Part shown: in pieces, positions 4,229 to 14,261 of the stretch
How positions within the stretch are numbered: position 1 is the first letter of the stretch
Layout: every line of letters begins with the position of its first letter
Virus record (IMG/VR): IMGVR_UViG_3300025127_000338
Location: 1-21,505 of that record
DNA from: a virus
Reading direction: 5' to 3' (one strand)
DNA: 21,505 nucleotides
Notes under the pieces: model-generated
Databases searched by the model: none
The model's input: only the letters and a program-made list of their open reading frames with translations
What the model was told of the DNA's origin: nothing
Position numbers and translations under genes: made by a program

Positions 4229-4858
4229 CTACAACCTGATCAGGCTATCATTCCTACCAATTTGTCCAATTGGCTTAATATTCATGGCGATAGAATATCT
4301 ATCTTGATCTCCGAAATAATAGAAAATTCTATGTTTTAAATAGCTAGGAAAAACTATTAAATCACCCTTTTTTACATTTTGCCTACAAATATTGTTAAAA
4401 AAGAAACTATCTAATGGCTCTTTATTTATATCCCATGGTAAAATTTGTGGTCTTACGAATTCTATTTTTATATCATCTTCTATTGTTCCAGATGGGTAAT
4501 AAACAGCACTTAACCAATAATTAGCATGATAATGAGTTTCTGAAAAACCTTGATTTTTAACTAGGGTAGACCAACTATTTTGTATTTCAAAATCTTGATT
4601 TATACCCATATCTTTTAAACCATCTTTAATTATATTTTTTAATTTTTCTTTTATTAAATCACCATACGTTAAGATTGAAAAAATATTTTTATTTTTAGAT
4701 ATCAAAGATTTAGTGATGTTTTGCATATTTGTATCATCATCACAAAACTCATATTGTAATTTTTTTAAGTCTTTTAAAATTAACTCATTGTTTAATTCAA
4801 GATCTTCAAAGTACAAAAACCACTCAGAAAAAGGAATAACCGTATTTTTTTTCATCAA
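4229..4858 (-). CDS. 2-oxoglutarate/Fe(II)-dependent oxygenase-like protein, 209 aa
   Basis: Residues 95-197 carry the pattern of putative 2OG-Fe(II) oxygenases. ETHYHANYWLSAVYYP (107-122) has the His-x-His segment (H109/H111). KKGDLIVFPSYLKH (163-176) holds the distal metal-ligand candidate H176, and DRYSIAMNI (186-194) carries the likely 2OG-binding R187. Such enzymes couple decarboxylation of 2-oxoglutarate to hydroxylation of a substrate; the substrate here cannot be told. The N-terminal ~90 residues are helical and Lys/Asn-rich. The start codon overlaps the upstream peptidase stop (ATGA); a second ATG follows immediately at 4855. Oxygenases of this type are known as cargo in marine phages, where roles in nucleic-acid or surface modification have been proposed. 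Confidence 0.8.
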   Translation of the reverse strand: MMKKNTVIPFSEWFLYFEDLELNNELILKDLKKLQYEFCDDDTNMQNITKSLISKNKNIFSILTYGDLIKEKLKNIIKDGLKDMGINQDFEIQNSWSTLVKNQGFSETHYHANYWLSAVYYPSGTIEDDIKIEFVRPQILPWDINKEPLDSFFFNNICRQNVKKGDLIVFPSYLKHRIFYYFGDQDRYSIAMNIKPIGQIGRNDSLIRL

Positions 4859-5331
4859 ACTAAATCAGTGGCTTTACCTAATATTGGTTTGTATTTTGTT
4901 TTTCCTTCTGATTTATATGCGTGTAAAAATGATGCTCTTGGTGTTCCATCAACCCAACTACAATGAATCCACCCGCTGTTGGGTTCTCCTGGAGTATAGA
5001 ACTCGAGGATTAGCTGGTCTGGCGTAAGGTTTGATTTTATCCAATCAAAAAGCTCAGCGTTATCCACACCAACACATTCAAAGTCTGCGGCCTCTGCGCG
5101 TGCATGCTGCGAATTTACAGAACTTCCAATAGCAGTGCATAATTCTGGGCTACGGAATCCGCTAGTCACCTTAACCCTGCCAAAGTGATCCCGAACTGGT
5201 TGAAGAATATTTTCACATAGTAATTTTAATTTTTCTATTTGATCAGCATTAGGATTATTATCAATACCCTTCCTAATCGCTGTGTCTGATTTAGTTAGCT
5301 CTAACAAACTAAAGTTTCGTGTCAAATTCAT
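4855..5331 (-). CDS. M15-type D-Ala-D-Ala peptidase, probable endolysin, 158 aa
   Basis: A compact single-domain peptidoglycan peptidase of the M15A/peptidase_M15_3 type. Visible motifs are RVKVTSGFRSPELCTAIGSS (52-71), the zinc-binding SQHARAEAAD (S74, H76, D83), LILEFY with E110 as candidate catalytic acid, and GWIHCSW with the third zinc ligand H123. These enzymes cut the stem-peptide cross-link of the cell wall. No signal peptide or membrane anchor is present, so export would need a holin or another pore. Its length of about 150 residues fits stand-alone phage endolysins. The ATG overlaps the preceding gene (ATGA) and has a GGAGG ribosome site inside that gene. The neighbouring small membrane and amphipathic proteins support a lysis role. 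Confidence 0.85.
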   Translation of the reverse strand: MNLTRNFSLLELTKSDTAIRKGIDNNPNADQIEKLKLLCENILQPVRDHFGRVKVTSGFRSPELCTAIGSSVNSQHARAEAADFECVGVDNAELFDWIKSNLTPDQLILEFYTPGEPNSGWIHCSWVDGTPRASFLHAYKSEGKTKYKPILGKATDLV

Positions 5332-5972
5332 TTTTTTTCCTCCATTTCATAAAACATTTTATCAGAGTCTTCTGTAACCATCTTTGTGTCCTCTGCATCC
5401 CAATAAGTATTTTGGACTTTATAGTCAGGCCAAGTGTTATCAGTAGTGTAGCTATTAACGTGCCACAAAAGGCGATTATTAGGCTGAGCTGCAAAATTAC
5501 CGTTATTAAGAGCCAGTATATGTGCACACTTATGTTCTTGAGGTATTTCAGAATGTTCCACATCCAAGATATTAGTGTCTGGATGAGCCCAGTCAATAGT
5601 AAATAAATATTGTCCATGATAAAACTTTTTATCCAGCCCCAAAAATTTACCATTTATACCATCCAACCAATCAAAGCAATGAACACTAGGCCAATAGCTA
5701 AAACAATTCCACAACTCCAACTGCTGAACCGACATATCCGGCACTTCGGCTCTAGAAAAACGTTTTTGGAAAAACGCTGAGATAGGCAACCTCCAATAGC
5801 ACGCACCATTGGGTAACATAATGTTAAATAATAATGCACGACCTGAAATGGAAGTAAGGCCAAAGATAACGCAGTCACTATAAAGTTTTTTATATTTTTC
5901 TTCCATGTCATAGAGATATTCTTTTCTAACTTTACAATATATGGGAGGAATGTTTGCGTTCAGATAAGCCAT
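5328..5972 (-). CDS. Conserved phage protein of unknown function, 214 aa
   Basis: A 214-residue protein rich in Trp, Tyr, Phe and Cys, opening MAYLNANIPPIYCKVRKEYL and followed by CVIFGLTSISGRALLFNIML (34-53) and ACYWRLPISAFF. The middle has QLELWNCFSYW and the C-terminal half YLFTIDWAHP and NRLLWHVNSYTTDNTWPDYK. I recognise this as a conserved hypothetical protein recurring in marine and cyanophage genomes, but its function is not known to me. No transmembrane helix is evident. It starts inside the 45-aa gene upstream with GGAGGG about 12 bases before the ATG, and its stop overlaps the peptidase start (ATGA). Frames on the same strand inside it encode hydrophobic strings but have no ribosome sites and are treated as shadows. 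Confidence 0.75.
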   Translation of the reverse strand: MAYLNANIPPIYCKVRKEYLYDMEEKYKKLYSDCVIFGLTSISGRALLFNIMLPNGACYWRLPISAFFQKRFSRAEVPDMSVQQLELWNCFSYWPSVHCFDWLDGINGKFLGLDKKFYHGQYLFTIDWAHPDTNILDVEHSEIPQEHKCAHILALNNGNFAAQPNNRLLWHVNSYTTDNTWPDYKVQNTYWDAEDTKMVTEDSDKMFYEMEEKK

Positions 5973-6069
5973 TTTTATATTTTTCCCTCCAATAATTTTT
6001 TCTTTCTAAAAGTCTAATACGTTTTTCTAGTATATCAAATCCTAATAATTTTTTTAATAAATTTATCAT
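5932..6069 (-). CDS. Candidate 45-aa cationic amphipathic small protein
   Basis: A 45-codon frame begins at an ATG sharing one base with the TAA of the upstream gene (TAATG at 6071-6067), the same junction used elsewhere in this operon. The product opens MINLLKKLLGFDILEKRIRL and continues LERKNYWREKYKN, giving a long amphipathic helix with many Lys/Arg and a heptad-like Leu/Ile pattern. It overlaps the start of the 214-aa gene by 41 bases and carries that gene's ribosome site. It fills the otherwise empty 97 bases between two genes. Support is junction type, composition and gap-filling; no homology can be claimed. It could be a membrane-surface peptide or a small coiled-coil partner of the lysis-region proteins. 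Confidence 0.5.
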   Translation of the reverse strand: MINLLKKLLGFDILEKRIRLLERKNYWREKYKNGLSERKHSSHIL

Positions 6070-6284
6070 TATTCTATAATTAATTTTTTGATACTTTTAC
6101 TACCATCTATGTTCAATTCTAATTCTGCAGAACCCTTCCAGCATTTGTAGGTTACCGATTCAGAATATTCACGTTCCGCGTGACGCTTGCCTCGTAAACA
6201 TTGTGCCATACCATCAACCTGCAAACGAGCTTCTTTAATTTCTGCGTTTACAAACATCAGGAGGGCTACCACACTTTCAATCAT
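6069..6284 (-). CDS. Small predicted secreted protein with two cysteines, 71 aa
   Basis: The 71-residue product begins with a short hydrophobic stretch (MIESVVALLMFVNA, with a possible cleavage after VNA). A soluble part follows with C29 and C48, and a C-terminal beta-like end (AELELNIDGSKSIKKLIIE). The pattern cys-x-RGKR... to YKC... to DGSKSIKKL is one I associate with small hypothetical proteins of marine phages. A disulfide between the two Cys in the periplasm is plausible. No lipobox precedes either Cys, so it is not a typical outer-membrane spanin. Its start overlaps the upstream gene by four bases (ATGA). The neighbours are a membrane-anchored coiled-coil protein and small amphipathic genes. 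The function is unknown, possibly envelope-related. Confidence 0.65.
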   Translation of the reverse strand: MIESVVALLMFVNAEIKEARLQVDGMAQCLRGKRHAEREYSESVTYKCWKGSAELELNIDGSKSIKKLIIE

Positions 6285-6703
6285 TGTCCGTTACCATTTT
6301 TGTAGTGCATGTCTCTAGCCTCGTCTTTTAAATTTTCTATATCTTCTAAGACTTTATCCATTTGTTTTCTTAAAAATTCTATATTAACTTTATTTAATGC
6401 CATAGACTCTATGTGTTTGTTTAACTTGTCTGTGGTCTTATAAAGATCCTCGATCATCATGAACTGCTCAGAATCTGCGGGCAATGATCCTAATTGTCCA
6501 CGTGGCCACTTAATTCTAAACTCTGTGTTTTCTTCCAGATCTTTCTCCATAATCTGTATACGAGTGTCTGCAACATTAAGACGTTCTATAATTTGAAAGT
6601 AACCCATAGTGCCAAGTGCTACGATGACGATCAGCGAGGCAACCGTCTTCATAGGCATCTGCACGGCTGCCTCTTCCGATATGTTGAGAGGTTTTTTACT
6701 CAT
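6281..6703 (-). CDS. Membrane-anchored coiled-coil protein, 140 aa (spanin-like topology)
   Basis: Residues 1-16 are cytoplasmic-like. Residues 17-38 (KTVASLIVIVALGTMGYF) form one transmembrane helix. The rest (40-135) is a charged, mostly helical region with two coiled-coil stretches separated by FRIKWPRGQLGSLPAD (about 62-77). That central segment recurs in marine phage hypothetical proteins. The topology (N-terminal anchor, long periplasmic coiled coil) is that of an inner-membrane spanin, but the size and central motif are not diagnostic. The ATG shares a base with the TAA of the 35-aa gene (TAATG), and the stop overlaps the next start (ATGA). The position near the peptidase supports an envelope role. 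No name is assigned. Confidence 0.7.
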   Translation of the reverse strand: MSKKPLNISEEAAVQMPMKTVASLIVIVALGTMGYFQIIERLNVADTRIQIMEKDLEENTEFRIKWPRGQLGSLPADSEQFMMIEDLYKTTDKLNKHIESMALNKVNIEFLRKQMDKVLEDIENLKDEARDMHYKNGNGQ

Positions 6704-6810
6704 TATTTAATATAACCTGGTTCTAAGAAGATAGCCAGAAGACATAATAATATAACTAACAGTGCTGTGAACCTGTAATCCATCCTGGCTATCTCCATAA
6801 CTTTATCCAT
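6703..6810 (-). CDS. Candidate 35-aa single-span membrane protein
   Basis: A 35-codon frame starts at 6810 inside the end of the upstream gene (start ATGGATAA contains that gene's TAA). It ends in TAATG, sharing a base with the next start. The first 14 residues (MDKVMEIARMDYRF) are charged, followed by an uninterrupted hydrophobic helix (TALLVILLCLLAIFLEPG) and a short tail. Tight coupling on both sides and a perfect fit into an 87-base gap argue for a real gene. Small single-span proteins beside phage wall hydrolases can be holins, pinholins, antiholins or lysis regulators; which applies here is unknown. Confidence 0.65.
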   Translation of the reverse strand: MDKVMEIARMDYRFTALLVILLCLLAIFLEPGYIK

Positions 6811-6883
6811 TCAGCCAATTATGTATTTTTTTAAATGGCCATGCAATTATATTCCATACCCATTTTACAATTTTTTTTACCAT
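6803..6883 (-). CDS. Candidate internal-start 26-aa Trp-rich cationic peptide
   Basis: Within the 73-aa frame, Met48 is preceded by AAGGAGGA about seven bases upstream (near 6891-6898), the best Shine-Dalgarno in this neighbourhood and much stronger than that of the full-length start. Translation from here would give a 26-residue peptide with four Trp, five Lys and one His (MVKKIVKWVWNIIAW, then PFKKIHNWLNG), predicted as a cationic amphipathic helix. Such peptides bind or disrupt membranes. Dual starts are known in phage lysis genes (for example the lambda holin), but the role here is inferred from sequence only. Confidence 0.4.
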   Translation of the reverse strand: MVKKIVKWVWNIIAWPFKKIHNWLNG

Positions 6884-7024
6884 ACTTTTATCCTCCTTTA
6901 CTATTGGATGACTGCAAGTTCTACAATCGCAATCATACCCAATACATTGATTAGTATTTAAATAAGGGCCAACTCCTTTACAATGACAAGGATGAAAACA
7001 TAATGTACACTTTAACACTTCCAT
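6803..7024 (-). CDS. Cys-rich N-terminus plus Trp-rich amphipathic tail, 73 aa
   Basis: The N-terminal 40 residues carry eight cysteines and three histidines (CTLCFHPCHCKG, CIGYDCDCRTCSHP), a spacing suggesting a small zinc-binding knuckle. After an acidic linker, residues 48-73 form a basic Trp-rich amphipathic helix. The start at 7024 overlaps the previous gene by 13 bases with a weak GAAG site. A far stronger ribosome site precedes the internal Met48, listed separately. The stop overlaps the 35-aa gene start. The combination of a metal-knuckle-like head and a membrane-active-looking tail is unusual; no family is recognised. Alternatively the two halves may act as separate products. Confidence 0.6.
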   Translation of the reverse strand: MEVLKCTLCFHPCHCKGVGPYLNTNQCIGYDCDCRTCSHPIVKEDKSMVKKIVKWVWNIIAWPFKKIHNWLNG

Positions 7025-11893: not shown

Positions 11894-12340
11894 TTAATAA
11901 TGGTGCAAAATATTTGTAGGATCTGTAATAGTTGCTATGACTTCATCGTCATTTAAAACTCTTACTTCTCCCCCATCTATTTTGAATCTTGACCCTGCAT
12001 ATCTACTAAATATTACCCAATCATTTAGTTTACACCAAGGTCCGTTTGAGAATTTATCTTTGTCTTGGTAACAAAGATCTCCCATTTTTAGCACAAGACC
12101 ACATACGGTTGTCATTTGTATGGTTTCTTGAGTTGTATCAGAAAGCAAAATCCCACCTTTTGTTTTTTTAGGGCCAGCATAGGGTAATACTAACAACCTA
12201 TAACCTGTTGGTGAGGGTAAACTTTCTAAAGTTGATTGTTCGATCGCGCTTGGATCTAGAACTGTTTTTATCGCTTCTTCAGCTTTGTAAGCATCTAAAA
12301 GTGCTTCAGTCCTCTTCGGTGTCTCCTGGGACTTTGTCAT
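11894..12340 (-). CDS. GroES-like co-chaperonin (Cpn10), 148 aa
   Basis: Residues 45-141 form a Cpn10 domain. It opens with PTGYRLLVLPYAG, is followed by a glycine-containing mobile-loop segment (KKTKGGILLSDTTQE, 58-72), the beta core TVCGLVLKMGDLC, then NDWVIFSRYAGSRFKIDGGE and VRVLNDDEVIATI. The mobile loop is where GroES contacts GroEL. The N-terminal 44 residues are an extra helical extension not found in bacterial GroES (about 97 residues). Phage GroES-like proteins such as T4 gp31 adapt the host GroEL to fold capsid protein. Its place immediately upstream of the scaffold and capsid genes supports that job. The start overlaps the upstream gene and has a GGAG site. Confidence 0.9.
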   Translation of the reverse strand: MTKSQETPKRTEALLDAYKAEEAIKTVLDPSAIEQSTLESLPSPTGYRLLVLPYAGPKKTKGGILLSDTTQETIQMTTVCGLVLKMGDLCYQDKDKFSNGPWCKLNDWVIFSRYAGSRFKIDGGEVRVLNDDEVIATITDPTNILHHY

Positions 12341-13874: not shown

Positions 13875-14261
13875 TTATTTTTTTCCTCCGTTCCTAAATA
13901 TTTGTGTTCCCTTTATACCATATATTGAAGCCACAACCAAGATCCACAAGTTTGTGAACCATGACGGGAGCTGCGAGAACATTTCGAAGAACAGTTTTAC
14001 TTTATTCATCGCTTCAGGATCTTCACTTATCACTGACCACGCCAAAACAGCGATTGGCGCAGACAAGATAATAAGAACCGCCTCGTCCTTCCAGTCTGAT
14101 TGTCGGGCCTCTAATAATTTACCTTGGTAAGCTTCTTCACCTCGGGCCATCTTAGCAGCATGCATGTGTTGTGCATCTGCCATTGCCATTTTAGTCTCTT
14201 GACGCTTCTTATAGATATGACTAGCTGCGTTTAATCCCAATTTTAAGGCACTGAACCACAT
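13875..14261 (-). CDS. Holin-like two-span membrane protein, 128 aa
   Basis: A 128-residue protein with a long N-terminal basic/amphipathic part (MWFSALKLGLNAASHIYKKR, then MHAAKMARGEEAYQGKLLEA). Two transmembrane helices follow: AVLIILSAPIAVLAWSVIS (about 60-78) and FTNLWILVVASIYGIKG (about 102-118), separated by a loop. The SDWKDEAVL...W...YGIKG plan resembles phage proteins annotated as 3TM-type holins. Such proteins form the membrane lesion that releases endolysin. AAGGAG lies 10 bases from the ATG, inside the homing endonuclease gene that overlaps it by 41 bases. It is 9 kb from the peptidase gene, so its lysis role is a hypothesis. Confidence 0.65.
   Translation of the reverse strand: MWFSALKLGLNAASHIYKKRQETKMAMADAQHMHAAKMARGEEAYQGKLLEARQSDWKDEAVLIILSAPIAVLAWSVISEDPEAMNKVKLFFEMFSQLPSWFTNLWILVVASIYGIKGTQIFRNGGKK

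Follow-up and report, generated by a model that had tools for sequence, protein, structure and literature searches.

An anchored coiled-coil protein and its small two-cysteine partner as candidate envelope or lysis-control genes of SAR11 phages

Introduction

Do seven small overlapping genes that end in a peptidase make up one lysis module, or does such a block bring together genes that travel separately? The question is raised by a 21.5-kb linear virus fragment (IMG/VR record IMGVR_UViG_3300025127_000338, positions 1 to 21,505; hereafter, the window), in which seven minus-strand frames between positions 4855 and 7024 overlap or abut. Along the chain, they encode proteins of 73 amino acids (aa; 7024-6803), 35 aa (6810-6703), 140 aa (6703-6281), 71 aa (6284-6069), 45 aa (6069-5932), 214 aa (5972-5328) and 158 aa (5331-4855), the last an M15 peptidase. 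An earlier reading of the sequence (hereafter, the original prediction) proposed all seven as a candidate undescribed lysis or envelope module. We find that the block mixes at least three things, namely an endolysin, a 140-aa/71-aa gene pair of SAR11 phages and a passenger unit of the 45-aa and 214-aa genes, plus variable accessory slots. From sequence comparison, we propose the 140-aa and 71-aa genes as candidate envelope or lysis-control genes in a system without recognisable spanin lipoproteins.

Results

The 140-aa gene (phrog_20984; 6281..6703, minus strand) and the 71-aa gene (phrog_24646; 6069..6284, minus strand) form a near-obligate pair that is almost exclusive to SAR11 phages. Gene order was compared in 220 loci fetched with the 140-aa, M15 and 214-aa proteins, in which all genes were mapped and to which isolate regions were added; the presence of these three genes at fetched loci is not independent evidence, whereas their order and overlap are. 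The 140-aa gene was followed by the 71-aa gene in 151 loci, with overlap or abutment in 97 of 144. A tblastn search of 50,697 phage records returned 45 with the 140-aa protein and 40 with the 71-aa protein, every one from a Pelagibacter phage or an uncultured marine phage. Among 84,980 bacterial and archaeal species there was no sign of a cellular family of the 71-aa domain, which occurred in ten contigs, each with the 140-aa gene just upstream (10/10) and in most cases alongside further genes of phage cassettes. The pair spans unrelated genome types: HTVC010P and Skadi, HTVC034P/035P, HTVC106P, HTVC027P, Autographiviridae (HTVC019P/021P/200P/109P and S42-C7) and HTVC103P/104P/111P/115P.

Across these genome types the pair recurs in the lysis neighbourhood. 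An M15 gene lies next door or within 2 kb in HTVC010P, HTVC034P, HTVC106P and HTVC027P, and the first two of these share the order M15, holin-like, small gene(s), 140-aa, 71-aa. Among 42 relatives with 4 kb on each side of M15, a set partly fetched using the same genes, 36 had the 140-aa gene inside that distance and 32 had both genes of the pair there. In Autographiviridae pelagiphages the pair sits between a holin-like gene and TerS-like or TerL genes, the place that Rz/Rz1 occupy in T7: the order is GH24 lysozyme, holin-like 126-aa, 45-aa, 140-aa, 71-aa, TerS-like, TerL in HTVC200P, and holin-like, 140-aa, 71-aa, TerL in HTVC021P, HTVC109P and S42-C7.

The window phage most likely infects SAR11 (Pelagibacter), a host assignment that we base on the best matches of its genes, which are Pelagibacter phages, and on a Pelagibacteraceae single-cell contig carrying the same stretch (identities of 93% for capsid, 86% for the 140-aa protein, 69% for the 71-aa protein and 78% for M15). 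By gene order, its nearest cultured relative is HTVC023P, in which a homologue of a 128-aa holin-like protein, the capsid, a basic protein, the 214-aa gene and M15 follow one another as in the window, the holin-like gene again lying about 9 kb from M15.

The 140-aa protein has a single transmembrane span at about residues 21-39 (hydropathy, KD 2.07) and a heptad-rich C-terminal domain, with heptad-band periodicity over residues 80-134 (P 0.0045) that is weaker or absent in some relatives. Its profile matched only coiled coils in the PDB. In the predicted topology, the short N-terminus is presumably cytoplasmic and the heptad-rich domain periplasmic.

For the 71-aa protein, AlphaFold predicted with high mean confidence (pLDDT 91.9) a compact soluble domain of strand-strand-helix-strand-strand form, that is, a beta-hairpin, a helix and a second beta-hairpin. 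Cys29 and Cys48 are invariant in the alignment, bearing out the two cysteines first noted in the protein. The secretion proposed along with them was rejected on the predicted fold and hydropathy: the protein is probably not secreted, because its hydrophobic N-terminus forms strand 1 of the predicted fold and there is no charged n-region and no span. Structure and hydropathy likewise revealed no signal peptide or lipobox. The fold had no structural relative in the PDB and was matched only by unnamed viral proteins. A second family of small Cys proteins (phrog_19893, ~70-80 aa; e.g., locus L002, 5247-5477) lies near holin or endolysin genes in many pelagiphages, and its Cys-helix-Cys-strand pattern resembles that of the 71-aa protein, of which it is possibly a distant paralogue.

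All seven frames of the chain are genuine genes under purifying selection. Their median ratios of nonsynonymous to synonymous substitution (dN/dS) were 0.06-0.25, far below the 1.2-1.5 of shifted-frame controls (the 214-aa and M15 genes translated in the +1 frame), and this holds for the small frames on whose selection the original prediction depended. Medians were 0.061 for the 140-aa gene, 0.086 for M15, 0.11 for both the 214-aa and 71-aa genes, 0.10-0.21 for forms of the 35-aa family, 0.21-0.23 for the 73-aa gene and 0.25 for the 45-aa gene, the last calculated only for the portion outside its overlap with the 214-aa gene; these are pairwise Nei-Gojobori estimates, and in several families dS approaches or exceeds 1, so that they establish selection on the protein and are rough as values. 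The predicted run of consecutive overlapping genes exists in full, and it also continues at both ends: upstream, a basic 144-aa gene (DUF6321) overlaps it by 13 nucleotides (nt), and downstream a 2OG-Fe(II) oxygenase gene (PF13759) begins within the M15 stop codon. Because genes are tightly packed in other parts of the window as well, overlap by itself is no lysis signature.

Within the chain, relatives reveal two units, one in which the 45-aa gene precedes the 214-aa gene and one in which the 140-aa gene precedes the 71-aa gene, and either unit may come first ahead of M15, the window having the 140-aa/71-aa pair first. The pair recurs across relatives in its lysis neighbourhood; the 45-aa/214-aa unit shifts independently. 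In HTVC027P the order is 214-aa, Cys/Trp 52-aa, 103-aa coiled coil, 177-aa secreted, 140-aa, 71-aa, M15, and this cassette adjoins a DNA polymerase gene, which indicates that it is portable.

The 45-aa gene (5932..6069, minus strand) and the 214-aa gene (phrog_3704; 5328..5972, minus strand) are a separate passenger unit, because they stay together whether they come before or after the 140-aa/71-aa pair. In 47 of 51 loci the 45-aa gene is followed by the 214-aa gene, and the two overlap in every locus where both were measured, in the window by 41 nt at the start of the 214-aa gene. The 214-aa family is widespread in cyanophages, where it lacks the lysis neighbourhood of the window, and we give it no lysis assignment. 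The 45-aa protein is cationic (+7), as predicted; the amphipathic character ascribed to it is not supported by its periodicity (P 0.59). Like disruptins, the cationic peptides of spanin-less phages, it is small and cationic, but no amphipathic periodicity was detected in it, and it is linked to the 214-aa gene instead of lysis genes.

Far from being unknown, as first described, the 214-aa family is present in databases, where its cyanophage members carry the annotation 'PurM' or 'ferredoxin'; one study lists it as an auxiliary gene of purine synthesis in 45% of 82 HTVC023P-type genomes (PMC9599517). Searches with Pfam and NCBIfam found no PurM/AIRS domain (AIRS or AIRS_C) in the window, HTVC027P or P-SSM4 members, and a 61-sequence family profile found no PDB sequence match. 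The PurM identity is unsupported on these grounds, and from sequence the label looks wrong for the family. AlphaFold gave a beta-rich model (pLDDT 78) for which Foldseek returned weak Tudor-like matches only (E 0.027, TM 0.2). Overprinted hydrophobic frames within the 214-aa gene (5309-5653 and 5654-5911) were considered and rejected as not conserved: the nested frame has 2 stops in the window itself (P 0.01), but across 128 homologues the median of 6 stops equals the synonymous-shuffle mean of 6.0, and the shifted frame has a dN/dS of ~1.2.

The 35-aa gene (6703..6810, minus strand) and the 73-aa gene (6803..7024, minus strand) occupy variable slots. Family mapping of the 35-aa single-span microprotein found a common span (MxYxFTaxLIxLLCLLA) in three forms: one of at most 36 aa (20 loci), one of ~45 aa that has a Pro-rich, PLPKPKINE-like tail (19 loci) and a long one of 176-224 aa that includes a secreted domain (26 loci). 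The dN/dS of the 26-36-aa short form is 0.096, which indicates that the 35-aa protein is a genuine microprotein and not merely a decaying signal peptide. A link of the long form to CsgG and curli was rejected, as three contigs held no CsgG. The 73-aa protein combines an eight-Cys N-terminus, zinc-ribbon-like by pattern, with an amphipathic Trp-rich C-terminal helix. Other single-span frames of 33-40 aa (e.g., MIIYGxTxxxWKN..., before or after holin and 71-aa genes) recur in pelagiphage lysis neighbourhoods (loci L238, L235, L231, L237 and L233) and are unlike the 35-aa protein in sequence.

The last gene of the chain (4855..5331, minus strand) encodes a probable endolysin of known kind, as had been predicted. 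The protein matches Peptidase_M15_3 (PF08291; E 1.4e-16, 61 bits against a curated cut-off of 23.2) and the 'endolysin' family phrog_894 (2.6e-40), is 83% identical to the M15 protein of HTVC034P and carries the Zn-ligand and catalytic motifs SxHxx[A/G]xAxD (SQHARAEAAD, residue 74) and WIHxS (WIHCS, residue 121), a motif set present in 161 of 162 relatives. It had no match among PDB sequences, and a hydropathy scan found no export signal and no hydrophobic segment. It resembles phage endolysins of this class in domain, motifs, size and lack of a leader, with close relatives in HTVC034P/035P/023P, but differs in lying 9 kb from the probable holin, as in HTVC023P. The gene annotated 'peptidase M15' in Skadi-1 (OP131302.1, 12009-12440; locus L238, 4010-4441) and cited as a lysis gene of that phage (PMC10504331) has no M15 domain and looks like a membrane protein of 143 aa (phrog_38283); no PF08291 match was found anywhere in the Skadi-1 genome.

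Lacking an export signal, the M15 protein would require a holin, and the likely holin of the window phage, acting in the same system, is the 128-aa protein (13875..14261, minus strand) of phrog_2524, a family that carries no functional assignment. It has a clear span at residues 61-79 and a second, weaker span around 98-116. Its family abuts or adjoins M15 in HTVC034P/035P/204P/100P/Greip/Lederberg/HTVC010P, GH24 in HTVC200P and Amidase_2 in HTVC033P, and it is this association with endolysins of different families that supports the assignment. The membership of this distant gene had been doubted, and the comparison favours it. Of 16 pelagiphage genomes checked, 14 have the family; the exceptions, Skadi-1 and HTVC104P, encode another membrane protein, of 143 aa, close to the 140-aa/71-aa pair. 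The start of the 128-aa gene is overlapped by a 144-aa frame of a LAGLIDADG-type homing endonuclease (PF00961; 14221-14655, minus strand), which suggests an insertion next to the putative holin.

No lipobox-type frame of at least 35 aa was found in the window, in agreement with the lack of a lipobox spanin noted originally, in a scan that covered unusual lipoboxes (PMC6139136) only partly, and none was convincing in the related pelagiphage regions scanned. Nor did the window contain a frame with the N-terminal lipobox and C-terminal span of a unimolecular spanin, the 140-aa protein having an N-terminal span only. In a survey of 677 phages, 91 (~13%) were without a spanin and an alternative route was raised as a question (PMC6139136); by the criteria of that survey, pelagiphages with this system would join the spanin-less class. 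Our search for papers on pelagiphage spanins, made in a limited literature collection, found none, and the pelagiphage literature examined gives no account of outer-membrane opening.

Compared with known systems, the 140-aa protein stands out as the most plausible i-spanin-like or class III holin-like protein. With two-component spanins (Rz/Rz1; T7 18.5/18.7) it shares an N-terminal span, a heptad-rich C-terminal domain and an adjacent downstream partner gene, and in T7-like pelagiphages the pair holds the same relative position between holin-like gene and TerL; the 71-aa partner differs in being no lipoprotein, in having no signal sequence and in forming a compact beta-alpha-beta domain. With class III holins (T4/T5 type) it shares the single N-terminal span and large C-terminal domain, but no convincing sequence relation was found, and phrog_2524 is a second holin candidate. 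In related pelagiphage cassettes, a protein of 64-80 aa that is anchored at its C-terminus shows weak similarity to the PHROG 'hemolysin' class of XhlA-like small membrane proteins; none of this class was found in the window cassette.

Elsewhere in the window lie terminase, SU10-type portal, capsid and tail-region genes, and a protein with a Cpn10 (GroES-like) domain (11894-12340, minus strand) is encoded within the structural gene region.

Discussion

We propose, with a rough probability of 0.45, that lysis genes are dispersed in the window phage, with phrog_2524 as holin, M15 as endolysin, the 140-aa and 71-aa proteins as an accessory pair, the 35-aa and 73-aa proteins as envelope accessories and the 45-aa/214-aa unit as a passenger. 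Apart from the enzyme class of the M15 protein, we infer each lysis role here from gene order, pairing, selection, folds and domain assignments. The 128-aa holin would give the leaderless M15 enzyme access to the periplasm, where it would cleave peptidoglycan cross-links. The 140-aa protein would be a conserved accessory, anchored in the inner membrane with a rod-like domain in the periplasm. Working in the manner of an i-spanin or a class III holin, it may bridge or destabilise the envelope or set the moment of lysis, and the 71-aa protein would be a soluble and probably cytoplasmic partner to it. The 35-aa protein and the Cys/Trp-rich 73-aa protein would be interchangeable envelope accessories, and the 45-aa and 214-aa proteins separate passengers.

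Several observations weigh against this proposal. The pair is missing from HTVC023P, HTVC033P and Kolga, and is therefore not essential for SAR11 lysis; in 023Pt_psg01 the M15 gene lies ~10 kb away from it, and in HTVC104P, HTVC111P and HTVC115P it occurs without an adjacent stand-alone endolysin. Its proximity to terminase genes could equally reflect packaging or another late role. With no export signal or lipobox, the 71-aa protein does not fit the two-component spanin reading, and since it fails the definition of an o-spanin we do not classify the two proteins as spanins.

Alternatively, the pair may act late on the host envelope with no part in lysis, for example in superinfection exclusion or in shielding the infected cell, and only share the late-gene neighbourhood of endolysin and terminase. 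Its absence from some pelagiphages and its separation from the endolysin in others speak for this alternative, as does its restriction to one host clade across unrelated phage types, which is what a host-directed function predicts. We nevertheless regard this explanation as somewhat unlikely, because the position between holin-like and terminase genes, or beside M15, fits lysis better and the very low dN/dS of the 140-aa gene is unlike that of arms-race genes.

A more specific form of the lysis proposal is that unrelated SAR11 phages share a host-specific replacement for spanins, in which the anchored rod (phrog_20984), controlled by the soluble two-Cys protein (phrog_24646), disrupts the thin outer envelope of streamlined marine bacteria or triggers lysis with no outer-membrane lipoprotein; we offer this as a speculation of low probability.

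The 140-aa protein might instead form the pore itself, as a class III holin with a cytoplasmic N-terminus, one span and a large periplasmic C-terminal domain, with the 71-aa protein as cytoplasmic antiholin and the 128-aa protein otherwise employed. Its topology agrees with the description of that class (PMC9636201), and very weak PHROG holin similarity is seen both in the 140-aa protein (phrog_1296, E 0.059) and in the 103-aa coiled coil of the HTVC027P cassette (E 4.5e-4). Yet it is phrog_2524 that directly abuts three endolysin families and that is present in pelagiphages without the 140-aa gene, and we consider this arrangement improbable.

Homologues of the 140-aa protein in uvMED fosmid phages bear the annotation 'fibrinogen-like coiled coil protein', and such genes of marine phages have been placed among the under-recruiting host-recognition genes (PMC3909814), which would make the protein a virion or host-recognition coiled coil. 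An N-terminal span, strong purifying selection and a fixed small soluble partner are atypical of a receptor-binding protein, leaving this identity with little to recommend it. That all seven genes form one module, as contiguous overlapping frames under selection had suggested, is highly improbable given that the 45-aa/214-aa unit moves independently, that cyanophages carry the 214-aa family in different surroundings, that the contents of the 35-aa and 73-aa slots vary and that like overlap is found elsewhere in the window.

Our findings correct three annotations in use for marine phages, namely 'fibrinogen-like host-recognition protein', 'PurM' and the 'peptidase M15' of Skadi-1. Few known viruses are as abundant as SAR11 phages, and the 140-aa/71-aa pair is a direct candidate for the opening of the outer membrane by these phages.

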